Shown: piece after piece, positions 3,909-57,317 of the stretch | Layout: every line of letters starts with the position of its first letter | How positions within the stretch are numbered: the first letter of the stretch is position 1 | NCBI GenBank assembly: GCA_030684555.1 | Contig: JAUXVN010000020.1 | Coordinates: 1 to 64,000 of the forward strand | Direction of reading: 5' to 3' | From: Ignavibacteria bacterium | Lineage (GTDB): Bacteria > Bacteroidota > Ignavibacteria > Ignavibacteriales > Ignavibacteriaceae | Length of the DNA stretch: 64,000 nucleotides | Notes under the pieces: model-generated | Databases searched by the model: none | Told to the model about the DNA's origin: nothing | Seen by the model: only the letters and a program-made list of their open reading frames with translations | Position numbers and translations under genes: made by a program

Positions 3909-6011
3909 CTATTTTAATAAAATGACTTTTATCGTTTTAAATAGCTGCCCTGCTTTAACAACGATAAAATAAATTCCGCTTGAACTTATATTATTTGGGT
4001 TATTTGAATCCCAGGTGAAAGAATGTTGACCATGAGACAAATTTCCATCAAATAGTTTTTCAACTTCTTCTCCCATTAAGCTATAAATATAAATGTTAAA
4101 ATATTGCTCAACAGTTACAAATACTAGAAAAGAAGTTGAGGAGTTAAACGGATTTGGATAACAGTTTGAAATATAAAAATCATCCGGTAAAAAACCATCA
4201 TTATTTTTTATTGAGTTAATAATATTATTCCTGAAGAAGTAAAGTCCACCTTTAATATTTCCTAGAAAAAAATCTAAATCTGTGTCCCCGTCTATATCAA
4301 TAAAACTCGGGGCGGCATCTCCACCAAAAGAAAAATGATTTAGAAAAACTTCATGCTCAATCCAAATTGGTGAGTTCAAACTTCCGGTATTTTTATATTG
4401 TTTAATTAATCCAGTTCTATTCCCTATCCATAATTCGGGAATTGAATCTCCATCTATATCAACTAAAAAAGGAGCTGACATATCCCCAACATCTATATCA
4501 CCAAAATAATTTAGATTTTTAGCAAATAGATAATTAGTGTTGGTCCCAATGTTTTCATACAAGATAAGTCTTCCATTAAAACCACCGACTATTAAATCTA
4601 AATCGCCATCATTGTTAACATCAAATAAAAAAGGTCGTGCAAAAGAACCCGCTGTAATTAGATTATTTTGGTTATCACGAAGTTTAGTATCAAAAACAAA
4701 TTCCGGAGTAGTTTTATTACCGATATTTCTATATAGCGAGACATTACCAAATAAATTTCCGATAACCAGATCATAATCCTCATCACCATCAATATCACCA
4801 AATGCAGGCGCAATTGATAATTCATCTTCGATACCTTCAAACTTATTTGTTCTTAAGATAAATGAAGGTTGAAGTTTCGTCCCAATATTTTCATAAAAAT
4901 AGATTGTCCCATTAGGATTATTTTCTGCACCGATAAATAAATCCTTATCCCCGTCATCATCAATATCTAAAAACACAGGAAGACTTCTTGAACCAACATC
5001 TAAACTATTTAAATAGTTATAACTCTTTCGCTGAAAATTTGGTAAAATTGGATTACCAACATTTTCATAAAAAATAAAAGATTCCTTCACTGTTGGATCA
5101 TACAAGACTGTTACAAACAAATCTGAATCTCCATCACCATCAATATCTACAAAGCGAGGCATATTAAACCCGCTTGTATAGAGGCTGTCGTTGTTATTTG
5201 GATAGATTGAGCTGTGTAATGAATGAGCTGGAGAATTTGCATTCCCGGTGTTTTCAAAATAATATAAACTCTTACTGAAAAAATCCCCCCAAAACATATC
5301 GTAGTCACCATCATTATCAATATCAACAAATTCAATAGAGCTGGCACCATGCTTCGAATTATTTCCACCTGAAATGATTAAAATATTTTGCCATTCATTT
5401 GTAACATATTTAAAATTGAAACTTCCAGTTGTACCAATATTTTCATAAAATGTTAAAGTACCCGCCGAATTTCCACTTACGAAATCAAAATCTCCATCAT
5501 TATCAATATCAACAAAAATGGGATTACTACTAAACTCACTTAATATCGGTTCATCATTAATATCTTTAAGTGTGTCTATACTTAATTGGAATGAAGGATG
5601 AAATGGAGTCCCGACATTGATATAGAGTGAAATGTAATTTCCATTTGAGGAGGTAAATAGATCAAAATCGTCATCGTTATCAATATCAACAAAATAGAAC
5701 CAATTACTAAAGTGAAGCCCTTCAATCTGTTCTAAAGAAAGTTTGAAATCTGGATTTACTGAAGTTCCAACATTCTCATACCAACCGTATGTTCCGTCAC
5801 TATCAAGATAAAACAGATCATAGTCTCCATCTCCATCTATATCAATAAATTGGTGTTCGTAATTATTAATTCCACCTGAAAAAGTGTTTTGATACAAGGT
5901 GGTTGAGTCGCGAAAAGGGATAGTGTTAATTTCTCTGATATAATTCTGTGAATAAGTAGGTATATGAACTAGAAGAAAAAAATAAACTGTGATTAATCGG
6001 TTAACTGCCAT
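3909..6011 (-). CDS. FG-GAP/VCBS-repeat exoprotein with T9SS sorting domain
   Basis: A 700-residue secreted protein: a signal peptide of about 21 residues (ending HIPTYSQ), then about ten FG-GAP/VCBS repeats. Each repeat has a calcium-binding loop such as DIDGDGDYDLF, DIDNDGDFDFV or DVNNDGDLDLI, followed by a YENIGT-type strand. The C-terminus (NCYPNPFNSSTSF ... IKVILLK) is a T9SS type A sorting domain. Such repeats fold into integrin-like beta-propellers on the cell surface; the ligand cannot be read from the sequence. The start codon lies only 2 bases after the rsmD stop, so it appears to be translated from the same message. The DNA repeats here are explained by the protein repeats. Confidence 0.87.
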   Translation of the reverse strand: MAVNRLITVYFFLLVHIPTYSQNYIREINTIPFRDSTTLYQNTFSGGINNYEHQFIDIDGDGDYDLFYLDSDGTYGWYENVGTSVNPDFKLSLEQIEGLHFSNWFYFVDIDNDDDFDLFTSSNGNYISLYINVGTPFHPSFQLSIDTLKDINDEPILSEFSSNPIFVDIDNDGDFDFVSGNSAGTLTFYENIGTTGSFNFKYVTNEWQNILIISGGNNSKHGASSIEFVDIDNDGDYDMFWGDFFSKSLYYFENTGNANSPAHSLHSSIYPNNNDSLYTSGFNMPRFVDIDGDGDSDLFVTVLYDPTVKESFIFYENVGNPILPNFQRKSYNYLNSLDVGSRSLPVFLDIDDDGDKDLFIGAENNPNGTIYFYENIGTKLQPSFILRTNKFEGIEDELSIAPAFGDIDGDEDYDLVIGNLFGNVSLYRNIGNKTTPEFVFDTKLRDNQNNLITAGSFARPFLFDVNNDGDLDLIVGGFNGRLILYENIGTNTNYLFAKNLNYFGDIDVGDMSAPFLVDIDGDSIPELWIGNRTGLIKQYKNTGSLNSPIWIEHEVFLNHFSFGGDAAPSFIDIDGDTDLDFFLGNIKGGLYFFRNNIINSIKNNDGFLPDDFYISNCYPNPFNSSTSFLVFVTVEQYFNIYIYSLMGEEVEKLFDGNLSHGQHSFTWDSNNPNNISSSGIYFIVVKAGQLFKTIKVILLK

Positions 6012-6013
6012 AA

Positions 6014-6565
6014 TTAATCAAGCGTAAACTTATATAGAAGTGTATCCCCAATTTTCTTAAATGGTTCGAAATGAAAATTCTCTATATCTTTTTCCTTTGT
6101 TTGGATTGAGCGTTCGATAAGCATCATTCCTTCCGGGTTTAAAATTTTTACTTCCTTCACAATACTCATAACTTCATAAATATCATATTCAAAAAAAGGC
6201 GGGTCTGCAAGTATAAGATCATATTTGCTCTGACAATTTTTAAGATACCGTGTTGCTTCTGTTCTTAAAATTGTACATTTCTCACTGACATTTAGGTCTG
6301 TTATGTTCTTTTGTAAGTTCTTCACAACGGTTGAATTTTTCTCTATAAAAGAGATATGAGAAGCTCCGCGGCTTAAAGCTTCAAATCCTAATGACCCCGA
6401 GCCTGCATATATATCGAGAACTTTTGCGCCTTCCATTACAAATTCATTATTCAATATGTTGAAAAGAGTTTCTTTAACCCGATCTGTGGTTGGGCGTGTA
6501 GCTTTAAAATCCGGTGCGGATATGAACCTTCCTTTAAATAATCCTGAAATAATTCTTAATCTCAT
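6014..6565 (-). CDS. rsmD: 16S rRNA (guanine-966 N2)-methyltransferase RsmD
   Basis: A 183-residue SAM-dependent methyltransferase of RsmD size. The SAM-binding motif I is LDIYAGSGSLGFEALSRGA, and the catalytic motif IV is ADPPF, typical of N2-guanine methyltransferases. The N-terminal MRLRIISGLFKGR and TRPTTDRVKETLFNIL segments match the family closely. The enzyme methylates G966 of 16S rRNA during 30S assembly. It sits between a PilM-like gene (5 bases upstream) and the FG-GAP exoprotein (2 bases downstream), inside the long hrcA-led run. Nothing is missing from the family core. Confidence 0.93.
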   Translation of the reverse strand: MRLRIISGLFKGRFISAPDFKATRPTTDRVKETLFNILNNEFVMEGAKVLDIYAGSGSLGFEALSRGASHISFIEKNSTVVKNLQKNITDLNVSEKCTILRTEATRYLKNCQSKYDLILADPPFFEYDIYEVMSIVKEVKILNPEGMMLIERSIQTKEKDIENFHFEPFKKIGDTLLYKFTLD

Positions 6566-6570
6566 AATAA

Positions 6571-7497
6571 CTAAGCTAAGCGAAATGAAATGCCTGCGGC
6601 GGAGGAGAATGTAAAAAATTTATCTGAATAATATTTGGAATCAAATAAATTTGAGTCAACCGAAATCTTGCCAAAAGACTGGACTGCGTATGTTCTAATT
6701 CCAAAATTTTCTTCAAAAGATTGAATGAAGTTTAGAGAAATTTCATCTCCTGATAAAAACACCGATTCAATCATTTTTTTGTCGAAAGGTTTTAGTGAAT
6801 CATCTGAAAAAATATTATTGAGGGTTTCAACCAATTGACTTATTGACTCCAGAAATATTACCTTATAAAATACCGGCAAACCGGCTTCCATAAGTTCTAT
6901 TGAAATAGTTTTATCTGATATATATAAACTTAAAACTATTCCGTTCAAAATAAAAATTTGATTCAATAAGATTGCTTTATCAGATGCAAAATGAACATTA
7001 TCCACAAATCGTAAATGCAACTTGTTTGATTTGCAAAAAGAATGTAAAACTTGTAAAATCTTCCTTGGCACTGCTGAAACAATAGATGAATTATATTTTA
7101 CAAATCTATTTTTTTCAATTTCGAAATACTGGAAAATGTAATCATCAATTTTAAGATGTGGATATATTACCGAAAATTCCCACTTAAACTCTTCGATAAT
7201 ATCCTGATGCAATAAACTGGCTTCTAAAGGAAGTTGCAATGAAAGAAAAACATCAAGTGGGAGAGAAAAAGAAACCGCACTTGAATTGAGCGGTTTCTTT
7301 ATTATTAATTCATCGTACGCTGCTTGCAGTATGGAGACTATTTTAGTTTCTTTATCTTCTTTGAGATTTAAAAACTCATTAAGGTAAACTTCATCAATAT
7401 TATCAACTATGAACTCATCACTCTTTAAACTGATCTCAACAAACTGAAGTTTGTTACTCGTAAGATTAAATCCTGCATGATGTTCAAGTCCTGTCAT
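6571..7497 (-). CDS. PilM-like (ASKHA-fold) protein, divergent
   Basis: A 308-residue protein without signal peptide or membrane segment. The order of its segments resembles PilM of type IV pili. An early beta-rich block is followed by SFSLPLDVFLSLQLPLEA. Then comes an EFKWEFSVIYPHLKIDDYIF segment, like the PilM helix before its membrane-partner site. A VSAVPRKILQVLHSFCK segment follows, and the protein ends in SSAAGISFRLA, comparable to the terminal A-x-GLALR of PilM. Similarity is recognised by eye and is weak in the phosphate-binding motifs, so ATP binding is uncertain. Its neighbours encode a pilin-like membrane protein (10 bases upstream) and a ComEA-like protein. This supports a role in an envelope-spanning pilus or DNA-uptake apparatus. 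Confidence 0.5.
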   Translation of the reverse strand: MTGLEHHAGFNLTSNKLQFVEISLKSDEFIVDNIDEVYLNEFLNLKEDKETKIVSILQAAYDELIIKKPLNSSAVSFSLPLDVFLSLQLPLEASLLHQDIIEEFKWEFSVIYPHLKIDDYIFQYFEIEKNRFVKYNSSIVSAVPRKILQVLHSFCKSNKLHLRFVDNVHFASDKAILLNQIFILNGIVLSLYISDKTISIELMEAGLPVFYKVIFLESISQLVETLNNIFSDDSLKPFDKKMIESVFLSGDEISLNFIQSFEENFGIRTYAVQSFGKISVDSNLFDSKYYSDKFFTFSSAAGISFRLA

Positions 7498-7507
7498 CCT
7501 AACTAAA

Positions 7508-8062
7508 TTATTCCCATGAAGCGGTATTTTTTAAAGCATCATTCGTAAGATCCCCAATAGAACCATAACCATCAGGATCTTCGATTCTAAATTTCGTTCC
7601 AATTCTGACGGTTGTATCTATACGAACAAATCTGCCTCTGTTTGTAAAAACAGAATCAAGACTTGTTGTTGTATCGATTTCCAGAAGAAATTTTTGATGC
7701 GTCTTTGGAGCGAAATATAAACTTTCAGGTGAAAAAACTCCTGAAGTCAATACTAAAAATGGATCCATCGGGCGATTGCTTAAACTATCAAATGATTTTC
7801 TAATGCTGTCAACAAAAGGAGTATTGATGAAGGAAATTAAATCATCGAGATTGTTTGTAAATTTTTCATTCTTTTTGAAATATAATAATTGAGCTTCCCT
7901 CAAATTTTTCATTCTAAGTCTGGCTTCAGATTTATTATACTTTTCAACGGCTACAATTTCCCGCGGTTCAACAACTGCAACTTGAATTAAAATAACCACT
8001 AACACCGCAACTACTAAATATAGAGCAGTATGAATATACCACGGGTCCTGATGTTTAATCAT
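7508..8062 (-). CDS. single-pass membrane protein with pilin-like periplasmic region
   Basis: A 184-residue protein with one transmembrane segment (about residues 13-30, LYLVVAVLVVILIQVAVV). A helix with the pattern LRMKNLREAQLLYFKKNEKF follows, then NNLDDLISFI. That arrangement recalls the helix and start of the globular head in type II/IV (pseudo)pilins, but there is no prepilin peptidase site. The rest is beta-rich with no recognised motif. A strong ribosome site (GGAGG on the minus strand, 8067-8071) stands 4 bases before the ATG. The gene lies between the ComEA-like and PilM-like genes and probably works with them. It is otherwise a hypothetical protein. Confidence 0.6.
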   Translation of the reverse strand: MIKHQDPWYIHTALYLVVAVLVVILIQVAVVEPREIVAVEKYNKSEARLRMKNLREAQLLYFKKNEKFTNNLDDLISFINTPFVDSIRKSFDSLSNRPMDPFLVLTSGVFSPESLYFAPKTHQKFLLEIDTTTSLDSVFTNRGRFVRIDTTVRIGTKFRIEDPDGYGSIGDLTNDALKNTASWE

Positions 8063-32641: not shown

Positions 32642-35623
32642 ATGCAAAAAGATGAGTTTACTAATTTTAGAAGAGTCCGGAGACATCGATTTCTACTTCT
32701 CATATTACTCCAAATATTGTTTTACTCTTATCAATTCAATCACTCACAAATCCTTAATGTTAAGCGCTATTCTACAGACGAAAATCTGACCAATTCGATA
32801 GTCACATCTGTTACACAGGACAAAGATGGTTATTTATGGGTAAGTACTCTTAACGGTGTAAACAGATATGATGGTGTAAACTTTAAAAACTTTTATGTAA
32901 AAGACGGTTTAGTCGATCGAGTCGTAATTTCTTCATTTGCAGATTCCAAAGGGAATGTTTGGTTTGGAACTTATGCTGGTCTTTCAAAATACAAAAACGG
33001 TAAGTTCACAAATTTTGATAGTACAAATGGTTTTAGGAGTTATCCGATCTGGGATATTATCGAGGATGATTCAGGAAATATCTGGACGAAAATAAAAGCA
33101 GAGGGACTTGCTGTTATACGACCTGATAATTCAATTAAATACTACAATTCTAAAAATGGACTTCCCGATGAATTTATCATAACTATTGCAAAAGCGAATA
33201 ACAATAAAATTTTATTCCTGACAAAATCCGGTATTTCTTTTTTCGACGGGAAAAATGTATCGAAACTTGAAATGGATTCCAAAATTCAATTTCAACATTT
33301 GAAGTACATGATAGTTGATTCTGAGAACAATATTTGGTTAACAGGTAATTCACATTATAGAGTATTGATTAAATATGACTTCAAAAAAACAACCATATAT
33401 TCGATTAAGGATGGATTAATTGATGCCGGAAGTACAAGTTTGCATATCGATAAACACAACAATATTTGGGTAGGAACCAAAATTGGTTTATGTCGATTTT
33501 CGAATGGTAAGTTTACCAAATACTCGGAAGTAAATGGAATCCCTTCAAGCACAATTTTATCTATTTTTTCTGATTTTGAGGGTAATACTTGGCTTGGGAC
33601 ATACGAAGATGGACTCGTCAAAATACCACCGCCAGCTTTTTCTTTTTACAATAAAAGTAGTGGTTTGAGTTCTGAAATAATAACCAACATTTTGGGTGAT
33701 CATATTGGCAATCTTTATCTTAGTACCCTGAATGGATTAAATATTTTCAATCCTAAATCGAATTCTTTCAAGGAAGTTAAACTAAATGTGAGTCGAAATT
33801 TTATTCAAAGAATTAAAGTTGATAATCAAGGTAATATTTTTATGGCGAGTCCAGCTGAATTATTTAGTTATAAAGATGAAAAATTAAATTTGCTGGGTAA
33901 AGTTGCAGGTACTACTAGAATCAATGCACTCTTTATAGATTCAAAAAACAACATTTGGATCGGAACTAATAATGATTCCAAAACCTATATGATAAATAGT
34001 GATTCTAAAATTAAATTTGATTCAACTACTCAAGTATTGGATATTCAGGCGAATGGTTTTTTTGAAGAAAAGTCAGGAATCCTTTGGATTGGAACTTCGG
34101 AAGGAGTGTTAGTTAAATACCACAACAATATTTTTACCAAAATTACAGACTCAATTTATATTAAAGATCATCCACTTCAATCATTACACGTAGATGACGA
34201 TGGAACTGTTTGGATTGCTACTCAAGGGGCAGGATTAATAAAGTATAAGAATGGTATTTTTAAACAGTATTTAATGAGCGATGGATTATCCAGTAATGAA
34301 TGTTATTTGATGCTTAAGTGTGACAAGGGATTTTACTGGATTGGAACAGACAAAGGATTGAATAAATTTGATGGAAAAAAATTTAGTGTCTACAAAACAT
34401 ATGATGGCTTGCCAACCAATCATTTTATGTTTAACTCTTCTCACAAAGATCCAAGCGGAATATTATGGTTTGGAACAAATAAAGGATTAGTAAGATTCGA
34501 TCCAAATGTTGAAAACCAAAATACAACACCTCCACCTATACACATTACTAAGGTTGCAGTGATTAACTCTGAAATAGATTTCACTTCCTCAATTGAATTA
34601 GATCATTCAGAAAATCATATAACAATTGATTTTAGTGGAATTGCATTCAATAATTCCGATAAAATTTCGTATAGATATCGGTTAAATAATATTCAGGATA
34701 ATTGGACTTCAACTAAATCCCGACAAGTCAATTTCTCATTTATTCCTCCAGGTGAATATCTTTTTGAGGTGTATGCTATTAGTGAAAATGGTCTTAAAAG
34801 TCCAGTTCCGGCTGCTTTAACATTCATTATATATCCCCCTTTTTGGAATACAATTTGGTTTCGAATATTGGTCGTTTTATTACTGATAGCCATCGGCTTA
34901 ATTTATTATAAAAGAAGCATTAAAGTTGTTGAAAATAGAAATATTTATCTTGAAAAGATGGTTAATGAAAGAACTCAAGAATTGAGGTTCGAACAGTCCA
35001 AATCAGAAGAGCTGATTAAAAGTATTATTCCGGAAGTTTTAATACCCGAATTAAAAGAGACCGGACATGTACAGCCAAAAAAATATAAATGTGCCACTAT
35101 TTTATTTAGTGATTTTCAGGACTTTACTACAACTTCAAATCAACTTGAACCGGATATTCTAATCAAAGAGTTAAATGACATTTTTGAGAACTTCGATAGA
35201 ATAACTACTTCTAACAAAATTGAAAAACTCAAAACAATCGGTGATTCATACATGATTGCTGGAGGCATACCAACTGAGTCTACCGATCATGCAGTAAGGG
35301 TTGTTAAAGCAGCAATCGAAATGCAAAATTTCTTAAAAGAACGGAATAAAATATCATCAGTTAAATGGAACATGCGAATCGGAATCAACAGTGGTAAAGT
35401 AATTGCAGGAATAGTAGGTTTGCATAAATTTTCTTACGATGTTTGGGGTGATACCGTAAATGTTGCCAGCTTTATGGAAAGAGAATGCGATCCCGGGAAA
35501 ATCAATATTTCTGAGACAACCTATGAACTAATTAAAGATAGATTTGAATGCTTTCCACATAGAAACTTTAAAACAAAATGGAATCACGATTTTACAATGT
35601 ATTACATCAATAAAGAAGTTTAA
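32642..35623 (+). CDS. beta-propeller sensor with adenylate cyclase output
   Basis: A 993-residue membrane receptor. After an N-terminal membrane/signal segment (about 15-32) come about fourteen two-component-regulator propeller repeats of the form D-x-x-GN-x-W-x-GT (about 45-640). A Y_Y_Y domain (about 655-735, ending PPGEYLFEVYAIS) and one transmembrane helix near 745-765 follow. A short coiled coil leads to a class III cyclase (about 812-993). Metal-site Asp residues are D824 (LFSDFQDFT) and D868 (TIGDSYM). K864 and D933 (YDVWGDTV) are the ATP-selecting pair. The position normally held by the transition-state Arg is F944 (NVASF), so activity may be altered. In Bacteroidetes this sensor architecture is normally joined to a histidine kinase or HTH output. 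Confidence 0.88.
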   Translation: MQKDEFTNFRRVRRHRFLLLILLQILFYSYQFNHSQILNVKRYSTDENLTNSIVTSVTQDKDGYLWVSTLNGVNRYDGVNFKNFYVKDGLVDRVVISSFADSKGNVWFGTYAGLSKYKNGKFTNFDSTNGFRSYPIWDIIEDDSGNIWTKIKAEGLAVIRPDNSIKYYNSKNGLPDEFIITIAKANNNKILFLTKSGISFFDGKNVSKLEMDSKIQFQHLKYMIVDSENNIWLTGNSHYRVLIKYDFKKTTIYSIKDGLIDAGSTSLHIDKHNNIWVGTKIGLCRFSNGKFTKYSEVNGIPSSTILSIFSDFEGNTWLGTYEDGLVKIPPPAFSFYNKSSGLSSEIITNILGDHIGNLYLSTLNGLNIFNPKSNSFKEVKLNVSRNFIQRIKVDNQGNIFMASPAELFSYKDEKLNLLGKVAGTTRINALFIDSKNNIWIGTNNDSKTYMINSDSKIKFDSTTQVLDIQANGFFEEKSGILWIGTSEGVLVKYHNNIFTKITDSIYIKDHPLQSLHVDDDGTVWIATQGAGLIKYKNGIFKQYLMSDGLSSNECYLMLKCDKGFYWIGTDKGLNKFDGKKFSVYKTYDGLPTNHFMFNSSHKDPSGILWFGTNKGLVRFDPNVENQNTTPPPIHITKVAVINSEIDFTSSIELDHSENHITIDFSGIAFNNSDKISYRYRLNNIQDNWTSTKSRQVNFSFIPPGEYLFEVYAISENGLKSPVPAALTFIIYPPFWNTIWFRILVVLLLIAIGLIYYKRSIKVVENRNIYLEKMVNERTQELRFEQSKSEELIKSIIPEVLIPELKETGHVQPKKYKCATILFSDFQDFTTTSNQLEPDILIKELNDIFENFDRITTSNKIEKLKTIGDSYMIAGGIPTESTDHAVRVVKAAIEMQNFLKERNKISSVKWNMRIGINSGKVIAGIVGLHKFSYDVWGDTVNVASFMERECDPGKINISETTYELIKDRFECFPHRNFKTKWNHDFTMYYINKEV

Positions 35624-49663: not shown

Positions 49664-51400
49664 TTAGACATCAATTTCCAATTGTGAAAGCAGTTTATGA
49701 AAATGAGTTCTATTAATTCCCAACAATTTTGCTGCCTCAGTTTTTGATTCAGCCCTTCTCAACACCTTCAAAATAAATCTTTTACGAAACTCGGTTTCTG
49801 CTTCGGAGAGAGTCATTCCATCATTCATTGGAAGTTCTTCTGTAAATTGTTGTACAATCTCGGGAGGTAAGTCGTCAACATCAATTTCGGAACTTTTAGA
49901 AAGAACAATACAGCGCAATAAAACGTGTTCAAGTTCTCTGATGTTGCCGGGCCAATTATAATTTTCTAAAACTTCCAAAGATTTTTCACTTATAGTAAAT
50001 AATTTCTCGACGGTTGAGTTTTTATGAAGATAATAGTTTACTAAATCGGCAATATCTTCTTTCCGTTCGCGCAGTTTAGGCATTGTAATTTCAATTACTT
50101 TCAGTCGGTAGTATAAATCTTCGCGGAATTTATTTGCCTGAATAAGTTCGTTGATATTTTTATTTGTTGCAGCAATAATTCGAACATCAATTTTAATTGG
50201 TTGAATTCCGCCTAACCGTTCAAATTCTTTTGTCTGAATAACTCTTAAAAGTTTAGGTTGAAGATTAATATTCATTTCCCCAACTTCATCAAGAAAAAGT
50301 GTGCCTCCATGAGCAAGTTCTAATTTTCCGACTTTTGTTTTAGTTGCTCCTGTAAATGCGCCACTCTCATAACCAAATAATTCTGATTCAAGCAAATCAG
50401 TTGGAATTGAACTGCAATCAACTGTATAAAAAGGATGATCCTTTCGCCGTGAATTTCGATGGATAGCTTGAGCTAAAAGATTTTTTCCGGAACCGCTTTC
50501 ACCTAAGATTATCAGTGAAGCATCTGTCACCGCAACTTTTGAGGCGACTTTCAAAACATCAAATAGTTTTTTACTTCGACCAATTATTTCAGAACTAATA
50601 AACTCTTTTCGTAAATCATCAAGTTTGATTAGTGGATCGCTAATCATTTTCTTTTCAAGAGAATCAATCTGAGTTGATATCTCTAAACCCTTAACTATCA
50701 AATTTGCGAACGAAATCAAATACATAAGATCATTATTGGAAAATGAATTTTCATTATTTCGTTTATCAAGATAAACTGCTCCAAGAACTTTATTTCCCGA
50801 AATCAACGGGACACATAAAGCAGATGTAATTCCCAATTTCAAAATACTTACTTGTTTCGCATAATCATGCTGGTCATCAAGATTGTCAACCTGAACCGGT
50901 GAATGAGACTTTAGTGTATTTCTGATGACTGTTGTTGAGATTTCCATTGCATCGGGATTGTCGTTCAGCAACATGTTTTTTGAATAAATCGAATCTATTT
51001 CATCACGTTCATTAATAAGTGTAATGAAACCGGCATCGGCTTTTAATTCCTTTACAACAATATCGAGAGCTGATTCTATCAGTGACTTCTTTTCTTGTTT
51101 TGATGAAAATATTATTCCGGATGAATACAAAACTTCAAGTTTCTTTTTTTCTTCGTTTAAGATTGAAACTTGTTTTTCCAAACTTATTTGTGTTTCAAAC
51201 AAAGTATTTATTTGATTGGCAATTTCTCTATTCCAATTCAGAAATGATTTGAATACTTGATCAACTTTTGAGTTTAACTGTGATGAATTACTTGTCTGTC
51301 TAATTTCTGTTGATAACTCGCTGCACAATTGTGATATTTTCGAAGCCGATTCTACCAAAATATTCTGCAACTCTATTTTTTTCTCTAAGGGTGATGACAT
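49664..51400 (-). CDS. GAF-domain sigma-54-dependent activator
   Basis: A 578-residue regulator without a receiver domain. Residues about 1-100 form coiled coil. A GAF domain (about 105-245, with ALCVPLISGNKVLGAVYLDKR) senses an unknown ligand. The AAA+ domain (about 270-505) has GESGSGKN, an intact GAFTGA loop in ESGAFTGATKTK, GTLFLDEVGEM and FREDLYYRL. A Fis-type HTH (KTEAAKLLGINRTHFHKLLS) closes it. All catalytic features of a bacterial enhancer-binding protein are present, in contrast to the regulator at 43376. Targets are unknown. A truncated receiver gene lies about 110 bases upstream on the same strand. Confidence 0.94.
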   Translation of the reverse strand: MSSPLEKKIELQNILVESASKISQLCSELSTEIRQTSNSSQLNSKVDQVFKSFLNWNREIANQINTLFETQISLEKQVSILNEEKKKLEVLYSSGIIFSSKQEKKSLIESALDIVVKELKADAGFITLINERDEIDSIYSKNMLLNDNPDAMEISTTVIRNTLKSHSPVQVDNLDDQHDYAKQVSILKLGITSALCVPLISGNKVLGAVYLDKRNNENSFSNNDLMYLISFANLIVKGLEISTQIDSLEKKMISDPLIKLDDLRKEFISSEIIGRSKKLFDVLKVASKVAVTDASLIILGESGSGKNLLAQAIHRNSRRKDHPFYTVDCSSIPTDLLESELFGYESGAFTGATKTKVGKLELAHGGTLFLDEVGEMNINLQPKLLRVIQTKEFERLGGIQPIKIDVRIIAATNKNINELIQANKFREDLYYRLKVIEITMPKLRERKEDIADLVNYYLHKNSTVEKLFTISEKSLEVLENYNWPGNIRELEHVLLRCIVLSKSSEIDVDDLPPEIVQQFTEELPMNDGMTLSEAETEFRKRFILKVLRRAESKTEAAKLLGINRTHFHKLLSQLEIDV

Positions 51401-51509: not shown

Positions 51510-51722
51510 TTATTCGATATTTTTAATGTTATTTAGTTCATTCAAATTATACGCAAGAGATTTTTTTACTAAAACAAAGTCAACCGGAATTTTAGAACAA
51601 AGAATTTTTGCAATTTCTTCATCTGTTGCAGTTAAAATTCCATAGCCATTTTGAGATAATATTTCCCGTAATTTTTTTAACTCGCTTGTATTATCATCAA
51701 TAATAAGAATTTGCTTTTTCAT
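51510..51722 (-). pseudogene. truncated receiver-domain remnant or miniature receiver
   Basis: A 70-residue open frame starting MKKQILIIDDNTSELKKLRE, a clear receiver N-terminus with the acidic pair at positions 9-10. The domain stops after beta-3. Where the phosphoacceptor Asp should follow (VDFVLVKKSL) there is Lys, and the second half of the roughly 120-residue fold is absent. The next 109 bases contain no recognisable remainder in any frame. It may be a decaying gene or a short regulatory peptide. It lies upstream of, and in line with, the GAF activator gene, to which it may once have been linked. Confidence 0.55.
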
Positions 51723-52128
51723 TGTTTACTCTTTATAAATAGTATTTAGCAATGTCGCTTTAATACGACAGATATTTTTTCAATTCTTTCTAGGGACTAA
51801 TAAAACCCCGGAGGTTATCTTAAACTAAGATAACCTCCGAATAAATACGAAAATGGGGTTGGTGGTTGTGAGAAATTCTAAATTAAATTTCTCAATTTTC
51901 ATGAGCAGGATTGCCCAATTCTACAATCAATTATTTCCACTCACCAAAGAATAATTTTTGTAGAGCCCGCTGCATGAATCATCATTGAGATTAGGATGAA
52001 ATATAGCCCTGTTATATGATTCACAATAATTGTTCCAACTACTAAGAGTTTGAATGTAGGTAGAAATTGAGGTTCAAAATGAATTTTGTCGTTAAAATAC
52101 AACAGCGTAAAAATTAATTTGTTGTTTT
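51723..52128. other. intergenic region of about 400 bases with two hairpins
   Basis: No gene is credible here. It contains the strong 14-bp hairpin described separately (51809-51839). A second inverted repeat is GAGAAATT (51870-51877) with AATTTCTC (51886-51893) around an 8-base loop, followed on the plus strand by AATTTTC. The rest, roughly 51900-52128, is 3' to the receptor kinase gene and shows nothing recognisable. Confidence 0.45.
51800..51839 (-). terminator. perfect 14-bp hairpin, probable terminator
   Basis: CGGAGGTTATCTTA (51809-51822) and TAAGATAACCTCCG (51826-51839) are exact inverted repeats around AAC. On the minus strand the stem is followed by GGGTTTTATT, a modest T-tract. It would end transcription from the receptor kinase gene 290 bases upstream. 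A protein-binding palindrome is the alternative. Confidence 0.55.
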
Positions 52129-55100
52129 TTAGTTGATGGAGAGTAGTTTGGTATTTACTTCATCAATATTTGCAAATCTTTTAGAGGGATCTTTTTCCAA
52201 ACATTTACAAATAATCTCTTCGAAAAATTCCGTTAATTTTGGATTGCAGTTTTCAGGGAATTTGGGATTGGTATTAAAAATCGAATGTATAATTGCAATT
52301 TCATTTTCCCCTTTAAATGGGATTTCATTTGATAACAGTTCGTAAAAAATTACTCCGAGTGAAAAAATATCTGTTCTTTGATCAACTATGGTATTTGTGA
52401 TTTGCTCGGGTGCGCAGTATCCGAGTGTCCCAATAACAGTGCCGAGTGATGACATGGTTGTTATCAAAGATGATTTTGAAAGTCCAAAATCCATTATTCT
52501 TATATTTCCGTTTTCATCAAGCATTAAATTATTAGTTTTCAAATCTCTATGGATGATAGATTTTGCATGGATTTCTTTTATTCCTTCACAAATTTGAAGA
52601 GCAAAGTGGAATATTTTCTCATGACCAATCGGATGATTTAGTTTAACATATTCTTTCAGCGTCCCACCGGTTAATAGTTCCATTGCGATAAAACCTTTTC
52701 CTTCAGATTCACCTATCTCAAAGACTTTGACTATTGCAGGGTTATTAAAAGTTGATAAAAGTTGACCTTCCGAAGAAAACCTTCTACGATTTTCAATATC
52801 ATCTAACAATTCTTTATTTAACACTTTTAACGCAATTGTTCTTTTAGTTACTTTATCGAACGCCTTATAAACAATCCCCATTCCCCCTCTACCAATTTCC
52901 TCAATTATTTTAAAATGAGAAATATATTTTGCTTCCTTTCTTATTTGATAATTCCTGCTCAATATTATTGATGTTATACAGATTAACGCTACTGGCAATA
53001 TTGAGTACAATAATGCACCGCCAAATCTTTCCATCACTGAAACGTGAACTAACACGAGATATATACTCGTCAGAAAAAAGTAAAAATAGAATTTTTCACC
53101 AAGTGGATTTTTGAAATACTTTTTAGAGATAAAAAATGATAATGAGAAAAAAATCAGAAGGAGGAGTAGTTTAATAACTTCTTGTGTGGTGTTGAATAGT
53201 ATTAGAGTTCTTTTCAAACTTTTAATTGAAATTAAATAAATATGAGTAAAAAAAGATGACTCCCGAATTATCAATGTTAACCCTTTTTTATCAAACTCTT
53301 TAACAATTTCTGAACCGGAGGGAAATTTTGTGGTTAATCTGTATTTGGCTGCACTCGGAAGACCGAATAACAACTCCGAAATATTTTGCTGAATTAATGG
53401 AGAGGAGCCTAATCCCAATATCTTTTGAGTTGAATGAATCAAATTTCCATTGCTGTCAAATGCCTCCAGGAATATTGCAGTTCCAATTCCACTTCGATTA
53501 CTTTCGTCACTTATTAAGTTGACTTTAACAAAATTATCGGATACCAGATTATTTCGATAAAAACGTGCCCGCTCCCCTTGCCCAAATGAATGTCGTGAAC
53601 TCGCAATGAATAAATCTAAATCCCCATCATCATCATAATCAACAAAACTTGGATTACCTGAAAAATTTAACCCTGCAGCTTCACTCACTTCAGTAAAACC
53701 ATTTCCAGCATTATTTATAAAAAGTTTAGAACTTATGAAAATATCCATCCATCCGTCATTATTTACATCGGCACTATTTAAAATTCCGTTTGTTGGCTCA
53801 GGACTAAATGCTACGTTTTGAATAAATTCTTTTGAATCAGCTTTTCTAAATGTTCCATTTTTATTGTTATAAAATAGTGTGGGTTCTTTTTTTTGATGAT
53901 GAATCACAAAATCCATGTAACCATCATTATTGAAATCTTCGGCGATTGATACATGTGTTGAAAAGGAAATACTTGCATCAATACTAAAGGCACTATCATC
54001 ACTTTTATTAAATTTGAAATCACCTTCGTTGAAGTAAAGATCACATATCTTACCGTTATTAGGAAGGTTATATGGTATTAATACATCAATCAAACCATCA
54101 TTATTAAAATCGGAGAATAGATTACCAAATGATTTATTGTCAATAGGTTTAGAAATTGTGGTTGATGAGTTTGGAATCAGTTGAAATCTTCCTGCACCAT
54201 CATTCCGGAAGACCATATCTTGATTGTCTGTTGAAGAAACATAAAGATCGAGTGCCCCATCATTGTTTATATCTATAAAGCGCGCAGAAATTATACCAAA
54301 TTGTTCAGTAACGGGGAAAAATAATTTGGATTCGGTAGTGAAATCATGATAAGCTTCGCCGGTCGCGCCAAGATAAATTCTGTAATTCTTAAAATCATTA
54401 ATTATAAATAGGTCATTATACCCATCATTATTTATATCGCCAACAGCTATTGATTGAACATTTGAAAAATCGTTGTTGAGTCCTGCATTTAATGAGTTTT
54501 CCAGAAAAGTTTTTTGTTCACTCAATTCATACAACAACGACGGTCCCTGTTCCTGTAACAAAAATAAATTGATTGGACTTGTTAAATCCTTTTTGAAAAA
54601 CATTCCTGCTCTACCATCATTTCTTAGTGAAGATTGAGCTGTATAATCAGTAAAAGAAAATTCTAAAGTCTGTGAAGTTGTATAAATTCCCTTTCCACCT
54701 ATCAACCAGATATGATTTTCTCCTTTATTATCAACTATTATACTAATATCTGAAAAGTTATCATCAAAATTTTTTAGAAAAGGATCCGTCATCCAAACGC
54801 CATTCTTCAATTGATAAAAAGCCGAGTTTTCACCAACAATAAAAACTTCATTTTCATTTAATGGAAGAACTCTTAATAATCGATTAGGCGTTTCGAAAGG
54901 AACTGAATGCCACTTTCCTGCTGAGTATTTAAGAATTGTACCTCGATCACCAACAATCCAACCAAGATTTTCATTCACCATTTTGATAGAAAACAGTTGT
55001 TTATTTGTTGGGGAATTAGTCTTTTCCCATTTACCATTTTTATATTGAAGAATTATTCCATCTTTGCCTACAGCCCAACCATTATGGGAATCAATCATAT

Positions 55101-55716
55101 CTATTGAATTAAGATTTCCTGATAAAAGATTAGGTAAGGACTTTTTATCAATAGGACTTTCAGCTTCAAGCCATTTATTCCCATCAAAAAAAAGGATGTT
55201 CCCCTGTTGTCCAATCATCCATCCGGTTCCATCCGGTAAAACTTGAATATCTAAAAACATTGCATAGTCAATTTCATCCCACATAACTTTGGGAAGATTT
55301 ATTTCTTTTCGTATTCCATTTGAAATGCTTGAGAGAACCGGACGATAGGCACCATGATGGGTAAGATGATTAACAGCCCAAACTGTATTTGAATCATATT
55401 TTGTTAAAAGTGGAAAATCGGAGTATGGGAATGAATAAATTGGCGTCCATTTTCCTTTTTTAAGGTCATATAAATTTCCATTAATTTCTCCTCGTCCGGA
55501 TGAAATAGCAATACCATCTTCGGTCGAATACATTTTAATTCTTACACCCAAATCAATTGAGGCTTGCTTGTACCAAATACGTTCGAAGTGTTTAACACTA
55601 CTATCAGCATACTTTAATTTTTCATCATTATCACACGAGAATGAAATAAGAATTATTAAAGTTATAATGAATAGGCGTAGCAAGCTTAAAATCACTTTGG
55701 AAGAATATTTAATCAT
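52129..55716 (-). CDS. receptor Ser/Thr protein kinase with propeller and VCBS/ASPIC sensor domains
   Basis: A 1195-residue protein. A lipoprotein-like signal ends ILISFSCDNDE (Cys28). Residues about 35-330 carry YCF48/propeller-like repeats (GWMIGQQGNILFFDG, GWAVGKDGIILQYKNG, GWIVGDRGTILKYSAG). Residues about 400-720 carry six FG-GAP/VCBS loops (for example DINNDGYNDLF, DYDDDGDLDLF), and about 725-800 an ASPIC/UnbV-like domain. Three membrane helices (about 835-925) lead to a cytoplasmic Hanks-type kinase (about 934-1190). The kinase has G-loop IGRGGMGIVY, K964, HRDLKTNN (D1058), DFGLS (D1076) and APEQ, all catalytic residues intact. It should sense an extracytoplasmic ligand and phosphorylate an unknown substrate. 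It follows the acyltransferase gene by 31 bases. Confidence 0.9.
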   Translation of the reverse strand: MIKYSSKVILSLLRLFIITLIILISFSCDNDEKLKYADSSVKHFERIWYKQASIDLGVRIKMYSTEDGIAISSGRGEINGNLYDLKKGKWTPIYSFPYSDFPLLTKYDSNTVWAVNHLTHHGAYRPVLSSISNGIRKEINLPKVMWDEIDYAMFLDIQVLPDGTGWMIGQQGNILFFDGNKWLEAESPIDKKSLPNLLSGNLNSIDMIDSHNGWAVGKDGIILQYKNGKWEKTNSPTNKQLFSIKMVNENLGWIVGDRGTILKYSAGKWHSVPFETPNRLLRVLPLNENEVFIVGENSAFYQLKNGVWMTDPFLKNFDDNFSDISIIVDNKGENHIWLIGGKGIYTTSQTLEFSFTDYTAQSSLRNDGRAGMFFKKDLTSPINLFLLQEQGPSLLYELSEQKTFLENSLNAGLNNDFSNVQSIAVGDINNDGYNDLFIINDFKNYRIYLGATGEAYHDFTTESKLFFPVTEQFGIISARFIDINNDGALDLYVSSTDNQDMVFRNDGAGRFQLIPNSSTTISKPIDNKSFGNLFSDFNNDGLIDVLIPYNLPNNGKICDLYFNEGDFKFNKSDDSAFSIDASISFSTHVSIAEDFNNDGYMDFVIHHQKKEPTLFYNNKNGTFRKADSKEFIQNVAFSPEPTNGILNSADVNNDGWMDIFISSKLFINNAGNGFTEVSEAAGLNFSGNPSFVDYDDDGDLDLFIASSRHSFGQGERARFYRNNLVSDNFVKVNLISDESNRSGIGTAIFLEAFDSNGNLIHSTQKILGLGSSPLIQQNISELLFGLPSAAKYRLTTKFPSGSEIVKEFDKKGLTLIIRESSFFTHIYLISIKSLKRTLILFNTTQEVIKLLLLLIFFSLSFFISKKYFKNPLGEKFYFYFFLTSIYLVLVHVSVMERFGGALLYSILPVALICITSIILSRNYQIRKEAKYISHFKIIEEIGRGGMGIVYKAFDKVTKRTIALKVLNKELLDDIENRRRFSSEGQLLSTFNNPAIVKVFEIGESEGKGFIAMELLTGGTLKEYVKLNHPIGHEKIFHFALQICEGIKEIHAKSIIHRDLKTNNLMLDENGNIRIMDFGLSKSSLITTMSSLGTVIGTLGYCAPEQITNTIVDQRTDIFSLGVIFYELLSNEIPFKGENEIAIIHSIFNTNPKFPENCNPKLTEFFEEIICKCLEKDPSKRFANIDEVNTKLLSIN

Positions 55717-55747: not shown

Positions 55748-56869
55748 TCAAACTTTAATGAATATTTTTTTTGCATAAAGTATCCACATCAACCCCAACC
55801 ATAAAAGAATGAACGATACTGCCCACGCTAACGAAGCATTAATCGGAGAGAAGTAAGGGACAAAAAATGAATCGTACAAATACCCCCTTAATGTAATCTC
55901 TTTTCCAAGTTCATCTGTCCATTTTATTAAAGTTAAAGTTCTAGCAAAAATACCGGACAAGAAAAAAACTGTAATTGCATTTAATCCATATACAATAAAT
56001 GGTTTAGTCCACCATTTCCAACCTTGAACATCAACCAACCAATAACACATCGCAAAAAATATCAATGCTAAACCGGAAGTATAAACAACATAGGAACTTG
56101 TCCATAAACTTTTATTTAACGGAAACCATATATCCCAAATTATTCCGATAAGAAGTGAAAAATTTCCTGCTACAAATATCCAGACAGCTTTTGTAGCATG
56201 ATCTTTCTTAGTTCCTAACCAATGTCCTAACATTATTCCGGAGATTGCTGAGGAGATTGCCGGCATAGTCGACAATATTCCTTCAGGGTCCCATACCTTT
56301 GTAGCTTTCCACAAATGTCCCCCGAGAAGTAAATTATCAAAGTAAGCACCTAGATTAGTCGCTGGTTCGAGATTTGCGTATCCAACTCCTGGAACCGGTA
56401 TAAGAGTCATTAAAATCCAATAAATAATCAATAAAGATATTCCGATTATGGCTTGAGTCTTAACAGAGGTTTTCAAAAAGATAATTGAACTGATAAGATA
56501 TACTACAGCAATTCTTTGAAGTACACCGGGAATTCGAATGGTCTCCATATTGAAATATGGAAATCCAGCGAGTATCATCCCCAACAAAAATAATGTTAAA
56601 CTTCTTCTAAAAATCTGGAGCAGCAATTTTTTTTGATCGTCTCCTCTCTCTTTTCTTTTAGTCATAGAGAGTGTTATTGCCACACCAACAATGAATAGAA
56701 AAAATGGAAAGATAAGATCTGTTGGAGTACAACCATGCCATTTAGCATGTGCCAGAGGTGGATAAATATTTCCCCATGATCCGGGATTGTTTACTAAAAT
56801 CATTCCGGCTATAGTAATTCCTCTAAAAACATCGAGAGAGAGTAACCGTTCTTGTTTTGAATCCGTCAT
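55748..56869 (-). CDS. HGSNAT-like / DUF5009 membrane acyltransferase
   Basis: A 373-residue multi-pass membrane protein with about ten hydrophobic segments. It starts at ATG 56869 (MTDSKQERLLSLDVFRGITIAGMILVNNP); 22 further codons upstream are open but unlike the family. RLLSLDVFRGITI, a His in LAHAKWHGCTPTDLIFPFFLF and YGLNAITVFFLSG are typical of bacterial relatives of heparan-alpha-glucosaminide N-acetyltransferase. The human enzyme moves acetyl groups across a membrane onto glucosamine. The bacterial substrate is probably an envelope sugar, but this is not proven. It precedes the receptor kinase gene on the same strand. Confidence 0.85.
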   Translation of the reverse strand: MTDSKQERLLSLDVFRGITIAGMILVNNPGSWGNIYPPLAHAKWHGCTPTDLIFPFFLFIVGVAITLSMTKRKERGDDQKKLLLQIFRRSLTLFLLGMILAGFPYFNMETIRIPGVLQRIAVVYLISSIIFLKTSVKTQAIIGISLLIIYWILMTLIPVPGVGYANLEPATNLGAYFDNLLLGGHLWKATKVWDPEGILSTMPAISSAISGIMLGHWLGTKKDHATKAVWIFVAGNFSLLIGIIWDIWFPLNKSLWTSSYVVYTSGLALIFFAMCYWLVDVQGWKWWTKPFIVYGLNAITVFFLSGIFARTLTLIKWTDELGKEITLRGYLYDSFFVPYFSPINASLAWAVSFILLWLGLMWILYAKKIFIKV

Positions 56870-57317
56870 AATATCACCATGTAATAATAATAAAAGGTTT
56901 TCCCCGTAGGAAATTACAATTAAACAAAACTTCATTCAAGCAAAGAAATAGATATGATTACCCAAATCTGGTGAGGAGATGAAGATAAAGAAGTTTTGGG
57001 TTAAAATTACTTAATTGTGTTATTGAAAATATGAGAGTACTATTTATGAGTGAAATTTTTATTGGTACTATTTTCTGTCAGTTAATTCAATATCAAAAAA
57101 TACCGGGTTAACTATAATATTAAGTAGTGCTGTGTTCAAGTTGCTAAATTAAGTAAGAAAAAAAGAAGAAAAATTATCATTTAAACCTATGATGAATTCT
57201 TGACATAATCCACTATTAACTCTTAGATAAATAAATTAAAGTGTTTGACTTTGGAAGGGAAAGGTTTAAACTTTAAATAGTCAACAAACGGTAAGTTAAA
57301 GTGAAGGAGAAATAGAT
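56870..57317. other. divergent intergenic region of about 450 bases
   Basis: It separates the leftward acyltransferase gene from the rightward CPXCG gene. No gene was found. The only elements I can propose are a sigma-70-like promoter at 57200-57229 and the AAGGAG ribosome site at 57304-57309, both facing the CPXCG gene. The acyltransferase promoter could not be located. Confidence 0.4.
57200..57229 (+). promoter_or_regulatory. possible promoter of the CPXCG gene
   Basis: TTGACA (57200-57205) is an exact -35 consensus, followed after 18 bases by TAGATA (57224-57229), a fair -10. The start codon is about 90 bases downstream. Bacteroidetes use a different consensus, so the call is weaker if the host follows that pattern. 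Confidence 0.35.

Follow-up and report, generated by a model that had tools for sequence, protein, structure and literature searches.

An Ignavibacteria receptor Ser/Thr kinase with an HTCS-like ectodomain order and a co-inherited sigma-54 activator

Receptor Ser/Thr kinases, FG-GAP/ASPIC proteins, the sensors of hybrid two-component systems (HTCS), sigma-54 activators and the propeller receptor kinase PknD have all been described previously. Among bacterial receptor Ser/Thr kinases, a clear dedicated output is rare and a large ligand-binding ectodomain is present in few. Here, we describe a receptor Ser/Thr kinase (RSTK) encoded on the minus strand at positions 52129-55716 of a 64,000-nucleotide stretch of an Ignavibacteria bacterium genome (GenBank assembly GCA_030684555.1, contig JAUXVN010000020.1, positions 1 to 64,000 of the forward strand; hereafter, the window). 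Its ectodomain and kinase domain travel together with a dedicated sigma-54 activator and a small third protein, so that signal, substrate and target genes become testable as one unit. The reading preferred here, held with moderate confidence, is that the RSTK is an inner-membrane protein with an N-terminal lipid anchor and three membrane crossings, which signals via the co-inherited activator and represents the Ser/Thr-kinase counterpart of an HTCS.

Several described systems share parts of this layout. In the HTCS of Bacteroides (BT4663), as in the RSTK, two periplasmic beta-propellers and a beta-sandwich are followed by membrane, kinase and transcriptional output. However, the propellers and sandwich of HTCS are of the Reg_prop and Y_Y_Y types, whereas those of the RSTK are YCF48, FG-GAP and ASPIC-like, and the RSTK differs further by its three membrane helices and lipid anchor. 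Histidine kinase, receiver and AraC output are joined in one chain in HTCS, in contrast with the Hanks kinase and separate sigma-54 activator found here. CRTAC1 and the bacterial secreted FG-GAP-ASPIC proteins, two related members of which end in a sorting tail of the type IX secretion system (T9SS), also have an FG-GAP propeller followed by ASPIC/UnbV but, unlike the RSTK, no kinase. PknD of Mycobacterium tuberculosis has a single six-bladed propeller, without a second propeller, ASPIC domain or lipid anchor, and we know of no activator partner of the kind reported here for it. PknD nevertheless resembles the RSTK in being a receptor Ser/Thr kinase whose sensor is a beta-propeller (PMC2877116). 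The PASTA receptor kinases (PknB/StkP/PrkC) carry PASTA repeats, none of which was detected by Pfam in the RSTK; the NCBIfam model PknB_PASTA_kin scored 280 bits against a cut-off of 450, matching the kinase part only.

On the output side, FHA-type enhancer-binding proteins of Myxococcus are proposed Ser/Thr kinase targets. Both cases share the notion that a sigma-54 activator takes its input from a Ser/Thr kinase, but the activator found here has no FHA domain by Pfam, showing a coiled coil and a GAF domain instead. In the ECF43 pairs (extracytoplasmic function sigma factors; PknS-EcfK and PknT-EcfP), a membrane Hanks kinase is likewise accompanied by a co-conserved neighbouring transcription initiation factor, and activation by Ser/Thr phosphorylation has been shown for these kinase-sigma pairs (PMC13147305). 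Their partner is an ECF sigma factor, whereas the regulator neighbouring the RSTK is a GAF-AAA+ sigma-54 activator, which places the RSTK outside the ECF43 definition; the half receiver is an addition, and the ectodomain is a different one. Neither an FG-GAP nor a Reg_prop receptor kinase was found in the open-access literature searched, which included old surveys of kinase architectures in prokaryotes, and the domain combination, the exchange with HTCS ectodomains, the dedicated sigma-54 activator and the half receiver were likewise not found described there.

Architecture and conservation of the kinase

The RSTK gene is a single intact frame with an ATG start that encodes 1195 amino acids. 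Residues 1-28 (55633-55716, minus strand, as are all features of the gene) form a signal peptide with a lipobox whose cysteine, Cys28, is invariant in the 23 aligned full-length members. A first propeller of YCF48/BNR type spans residues ~48-385 (54562-55575, edges approximate) and is recognised by Pfam PSII_BNR/YCF48 (E 9.3e-9), by a sequence match to Ycf48 in the PDB and by Foldseek matches to YCF48. It is followed, at residues ~385-720 (53557-54564, edges also approximate), by an FG-GAP/VCBS propeller in which Pfam FG-GAP_3 matches 6-7 stretches (E 3.2e-35) and which carries six Dx[ND]x[DN]G calcium loops, the Asp residues of which are invariant across the family alignment. By sequence, the closest solved relatives of the ectodomain are Ycf48, CRTAC1 and integrin alphaV, the latter two matching the second propeller.

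The direct Pfam search gave no match to PF07593 (ASPIC/UnbV), even at E up to 1, and profile-profile comparison with controls was therefore used. Residues 715-830 of the family aligned by hhalign with a template profile built from seven proteins bearing the ASPIC motif (all four of those scanned by Pfam were PF07593-positive) with a probability of 99.1 and an E-value of 7.9e-19, against only 0.15 for two control stretches of the same protein. Residues ~719-820 (53257-53562), which form beta-strands in the AlphaFold2 model, thus show homology to ASPIC/UnbV by profile comparison, at a level below the Pfam cut-off.

Three membrane helices were located at residues 846-916 (52969-53181) by hydropathy averaged across the 23 members, all of which show the hydrophobic segments at ~846-861, 880-892 and 905-916. 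In the window protein, positive residues lie beside the inner ends of these helices, a pattern consistent with an ectodomain in the periplasm and a kinase in the cytoplasm. The kinase domain, at residues 936-1182 (52171-52911), matches Pkinase PF00069 with an E-value of 1.9e-56 and has PknB as its closest solved structure by sequence. The catalytic residues K964, E983, H1056-R-D1058, N1063 and D1076-F-G (Gly1078) are invariant (23/23) and the activation-loop Ser/Thr is conserved. Judged by the PF00069 match, the VAIK Lys, the alphaC Glu and the HRD and DFG motifs, the domain is predicted to be a Hanks-type Ser/Thr kinase.

These results bear out what the first-pass annotation of the sequence had read in this frame, namely one 1195-residue protein with a lipoprotein-like signal, YCF48/propeller-like repeats, six FG-GAP calcium loops, an ASPIC/UnbV-like domain, three membrane helices and a fully conserved Hanks kinase, the ASPIC assignment depending on profile-profile comparison and not on Pfam. 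Its further suggestion that Asp at position +2 after the lipobox Cys could favour retention in the inner membrane was rejected as a family-wide signal, since the +2 residue varies and is Asp in only three of the 23 members.

Full-length, single-frame orthologues were found in four other genomes of the window's own family (60, 45, 45 and 40% identity), with 60% identity within the genus and 38-45% in other genera, as well as in another family of the order and in two further families of the class. Kinase matches occur in 25 of the 164 genomes of the order, 21 of them full length, and five further full-length members were found in other families of the class, giving a total of about 26, all in one class; many of the searched genomes are fragmented. 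The phylum sample yielded no match beyond the window's own class, and a scan of genome contigs returned mostly FG-GAP-only relatives, with the full architecture in no named organism. Since full-length single-frame orthologues keep the architecture, the RSTK frame is not an assembly fusion. That it joins two genes artificially, or that the kinase is dead, has next to no probability: the only observation pointing that way is the orthologue of genome G144, which has an in-frame stop, and it is refuted by the some 26 intact orthologues and by the invariance of the catalytic residues. The stop in question, a TGA in locus L154 (G144:C45:107243-110758), is due to a sequencing error or else marks this copy as broken. 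None of the outcomes that the first-pass annotation had named as telling against it (a frame joined by sequencing error, no kinase domain hit, or the same full architecture being common and characterised) was encountered, the literature covered being open-access only.

Sigma-54 activator and half-receiver partners

The first partner gene (49664-51400, minus strand) encodes a 578-residue GAF-AAA+-HTH (helix-turn-helix) protein with Pfam matches to Sigma54_activat (E 4.5e-69) and HTH_8 (E 6e-4) and a GAFTGA motif that is invariant in 22/22 members. With its GAFTGA-bearing AAA+ domain and C-terminal Fis-type HTH, it has the sequence hallmarks of a sigma-54 enhancer-binding protein. In most orthologous loci the activator sits directly downstream of the kinase gene, and in 18 of 25 no more than 50 bp separate its start from the kinase stop. 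When counted as present at E <= 1e-200 in a profile search, it was found in 23 of the 164 genomes of the order, all 23 of which belong to the kinase-positive set; the kinase-positive genomes left without it are G141, where the kinase is a fragment at a contig edge, and G084. Of the 313 genomes in the class sample, 17 have the activator, and all of these have the kinase, including an apparent exception, G392, in which the contig begins inside the kinase gene and the C-terminal part of the kinase is present on the activator's contig. Both genes are kept in G010 and G011 (g5), where they lie on separate contigs, as well as in G145, G147 and G144 (genus g61), where they are 2.6-4.4 kb apart. A PII-like and ammonium-transporter-like gene set occupies the interval between activator and kinase in genus g61 (L148 3278-5891, L151 5234-7643, L154 10817-13408). 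All genomes tested for rpoN carry this gene.

The second partner gene, a small one (51510-51722, minus strand), is located in the window between those of the kinase and the activator; we term its 70-residue product a half receiver (mini-REC). Across members it measures 60-75 residues and is found near the activator in most loci. In 13/13 members it matches only positions 1-48 of the 111 of the Response_reg profile, and the site of the phospho-acceptor Asp, at the end of beta3, is occupied by K, E, S or R, with Asp in 0/13. The protein is, as judged from these alignments, not a full beta-alpha-5 receiver with a phospho-acceptor Asp. Between the window and its sister, the core shows proportions of synonymous and non-synonymous differences of pS 0.75 and pN 0.07, with the corresponding rates dN far below dS, and the tail is free. 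Such strong purifying selection on the core indicates that the half receiver is a translated protein. AlphaFold2 predicts a beta-alpha-beta-alpha-beta fold plus a C-terminal helix (pLDDT 78). By Foldseek, about 50 residues of the model overlay the N-terminal half of CheY-like receivers to within 0.6-0.9 Å, and the very small size of the domain keeps the E-values at only ~0.01-0.1. Of 30 activator-positive genomes, 29 have the half receiver, whereas none of 33 activator-negative ones gave a match of comparable strength; in the exception, G121, the match is a 458-residue regulator.

It could be argued that such a protein, short, devoid of the phospho-acceptor Asp, variable in its C-terminal tail and modelled with moderate confidence, is a leader open reading frame or a decaying response regulator. 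We consider this very improbable in view of the purifying selection on its core, the single copy kept in 29 of 30 activator-positive genomes, at times on a different contig, and a truncation point conserved in all 13 members. The half receiver, an unusual, conserved portion of a very widespread domain, may show how a receiver functions without its phosphorylation site. Since the kinase is accompanied by two co-conserved partner genes, the earlier proposal of this protein as the best candidate in the window for an undescribed sensory system is strengthened.

A conserved lipoprotein of ~255 residues, without Pfam match, is encoded beside the half receiver in seven loci of f2 (L147 4126-4896, L148 93-863, L149 735-1538, L152 4549-5307, L155 13549-14319, L158 13096-13869 and L160 13825-14592). 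It is possibly a ligand, a target or an accessory protein; its presence in only seven loci and the lack of a Pfam match led us to set it aside as a fourth partner and to keep it as a lead.

Ectodomain fold and sensor exchange in relatives

The ectodomain (residues 40-842) was modelled with AlphaFold2 from an alignment of 22 orthologues, with a pLDDT of 90.2 and a pTM of 0.87; the model includes a juxtamembrane helix at residues ~822-841. In Foldseek searches against the PDB, CRTAC1 (9etn) ranked first (533 columns, TM-score 0.66 by target), followed by the HTCS periplasmic sensors BT4663, BT4673 and BT3049 and by PorZ, and then by YCF48 (TM-score 0.71 by target). The alignment with the HTCS sensors 4a2m/4a2l spans the whole ectodomain (E 4e-16 for 4a2m), whereas rigid superposition on them is loose (TM-score ~0.45, root-mean-square deviation ~17 Å) because the relative domain angles differ. 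What the modelled ectodomain shares with an HTCS sensor is the order propeller, propeller, beta-sandwich and not a fixed relative pose. By Pfam, Reg_prop and Y_Y_Y were detected neither in the window protein nor in its four aligned relatives, and HisKA, HATPase and HTH_AraC were absent from the RSTK. The proposal that a surface-type ligand module has been wired to cytoplasmic Ser/Thr phosphorylation fits the conserved frame, the lipid anchor, the topology with three membrane helices, the catalytic kinase and the confident ectodomain model. The ectodomain, at first sight an exotic set of modules from secreted proteins, is not a one-off, given its resemblance in fold and domain order to the HTCS sensor and the canonical HTCS ectodomain present in two relatives.

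These relatives are G084, the weakest kinase match in the order, and the activator-positive G456, both of which have Reg_prop, Y_Y_Y, membrane segment and Pkinase in one frame. In G456, the family's activator starts 12 bp downstream of the kinase and the half receiver lies ~3.7 kb further on. The kinase tree groups the 23 family members, G084 and G456 in a single clade (support 99/100), within which the two Reg_prop kinases branch at separate positions. With the Reg_prop kinases nested in the RSTK clade, and G456 keeping both partners, the kinase-activator output emerges from these two cases as the fixed part of the system and the sensor as the exchangeable one. Both proteins directly exemplify the rewiring of a sensor of Bacteroidetes type, from phosphorylation on histidine to that on Ser/Thr. 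The window itself encodes, at 32642-35623 on the plus strand, a 993-residue protein that joins Reg_prop propellers and Y_Y_Y to a cyclase domain of class III (adenylate/guanylate), a further HTCS-type ectodomain with an output other than a histidine kinase.

The structural matches also raise the question of what is sensed. YCF48 acts in assembly by binding a client protein, and the layout of two propellers and a sandwich recurs in PorZ, a T9SS component. The three genes could accordingly form one pathway whose ectodomain monitors the state of an envelope complex, such as T9SS or outer-membrane assembly, and not a soluble ligand. In favour of this, PorZ and YCF48 rank high among the structural matches, and YCF48 proteins as well as T9SS sorting tails (Por_Secre_tail) are encoded in the window's genome; however, the match to glycan sensors of the BT4663 type is no worse, T9SS genes are not constantly linked to the locus, and in G456 a canonical HTCS ectodomain stands in the module's place. 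We regard an envelope-complex sensor as unlikely, albeit the most serious of the alternatives.

Several observations weigh against a dedicated kinase-activator pathway. In G084, where the kinase is on a Reg_prop ectodomain, neither the activator nor the half receiver was detected. No sigma-54 (-24/-12) promoters were found upstream of the kinase, activator and half-receiver genes; the search, which covered these genes and the f2 lipoprotein gene, returned background levels save for isolated sites in single genomes. In the window's genus, 728 bp with a terminator-like stem separate kinase and activator. This 16-bp stem, detected by a terminator scan at 51807-51841 (minus strand; two such sites in the region against 0.4 expected), lies between the genes of the kinase and the half receiver, and the kinase is therefore predicted to be transcribed separately from the half receiver and activator in this genus and not in one operon with them. 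Finally, the naive hypergeometric value for kinase-activator co-occurrence in the order, 4e-26, is too optimistic, as shared ancestry inflates the counts. More telling is the patchy but joint presence within the window's family, where G054 has all three genes and G055, of the same genus, has none.

This patchiness also bears on whether the kinase has substrates of its own, the activator and half receiver being merely co-inherited neighbours that it does not phosphorylate. Bacterial Hanks kinases are often pleiotropic (PMC4601284), and G084 has the kinase without either partner. Nevertheless, besides the joint presence or absence seen in G054 and G055, kinase and activator are kept together when unlinked in g5, when separated in g61 and where the ectodomain has been replaced, and we judge this alternative improbable.

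Proposed signalling and neighbouring genes

For the preferred reading, in which the RSTK signals through its activator, we infer the following course, in which the direction of signalling, the nature of the ligand, the phosphorylation of the activator and the role of the half receiver are proposed. The propeller pair would bind either an envelope partner or a ligand that is periplasmic or enters from outside, and the propeller/sandwich assembly would change its closure or dimer geometry on binding; BT4663 may serve as a model, for which a scissor-blade closing of the sensor is described (Lowe et al., 2012, as cited in PMC11253607). The juxtamembrane helix and the three-helix bundle would then transmit closure or dimerisation across the membrane. 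Conserved catalytic and activation-loop residues support a subsequent step in which the kinases would trans-autophosphorylate on the activation loop. By the precedent of the ECF43 pairs, the kinase could next phosphorylate the GAF-sigma54 activator, probably in its N-terminal coiled-coil/GAF region. At this stage the half receiver, which lacks the phospho-acceptor Asp and the alpha3-beta5 half, would most likely serve the activator or the kinase as an adaptor whose action does not depend on phosphorylation. The licensed AAA+ ring would finally open sigma-54 promoters, a step supported by the GAFTGA motif, the AAA+ domain and rpoN. Kinase, activator and half receiver may together constitute a new three-part class of envelope-to-sigma-54 systems, with exchangeable ectodomains, a fixed output and a non-phosphorylatable half-receiver adaptor, a proposal that we advance tentatively.

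Upstream of the kinase, a NagX-like membrane acetyltransferase gene (55748-56935, minus strand; NCBIfam NagX, below its cut-off) adjoins the RSTK gene in L143, L145 and L146. The linkage is confined to the window's own family, and the gene was set aside as probably not part of the system. A second kinase-activator pair is present elsewhere in the same genome (contig C141, L182), where a GAF-sigma54 activator gene (4475-5983) overlaps a gene for a Ser/Thr kinase with PEGA domains (5983-7548). On contig C139 (L181 6480-9185), a PP2C phosphatase is followed by a Ser/Thr kinase with a C-terminal YCF48-type propeller, and within the window, positions 3909-6011 (minus strand) encode an FG-GAP repeat protein of 700 residues.

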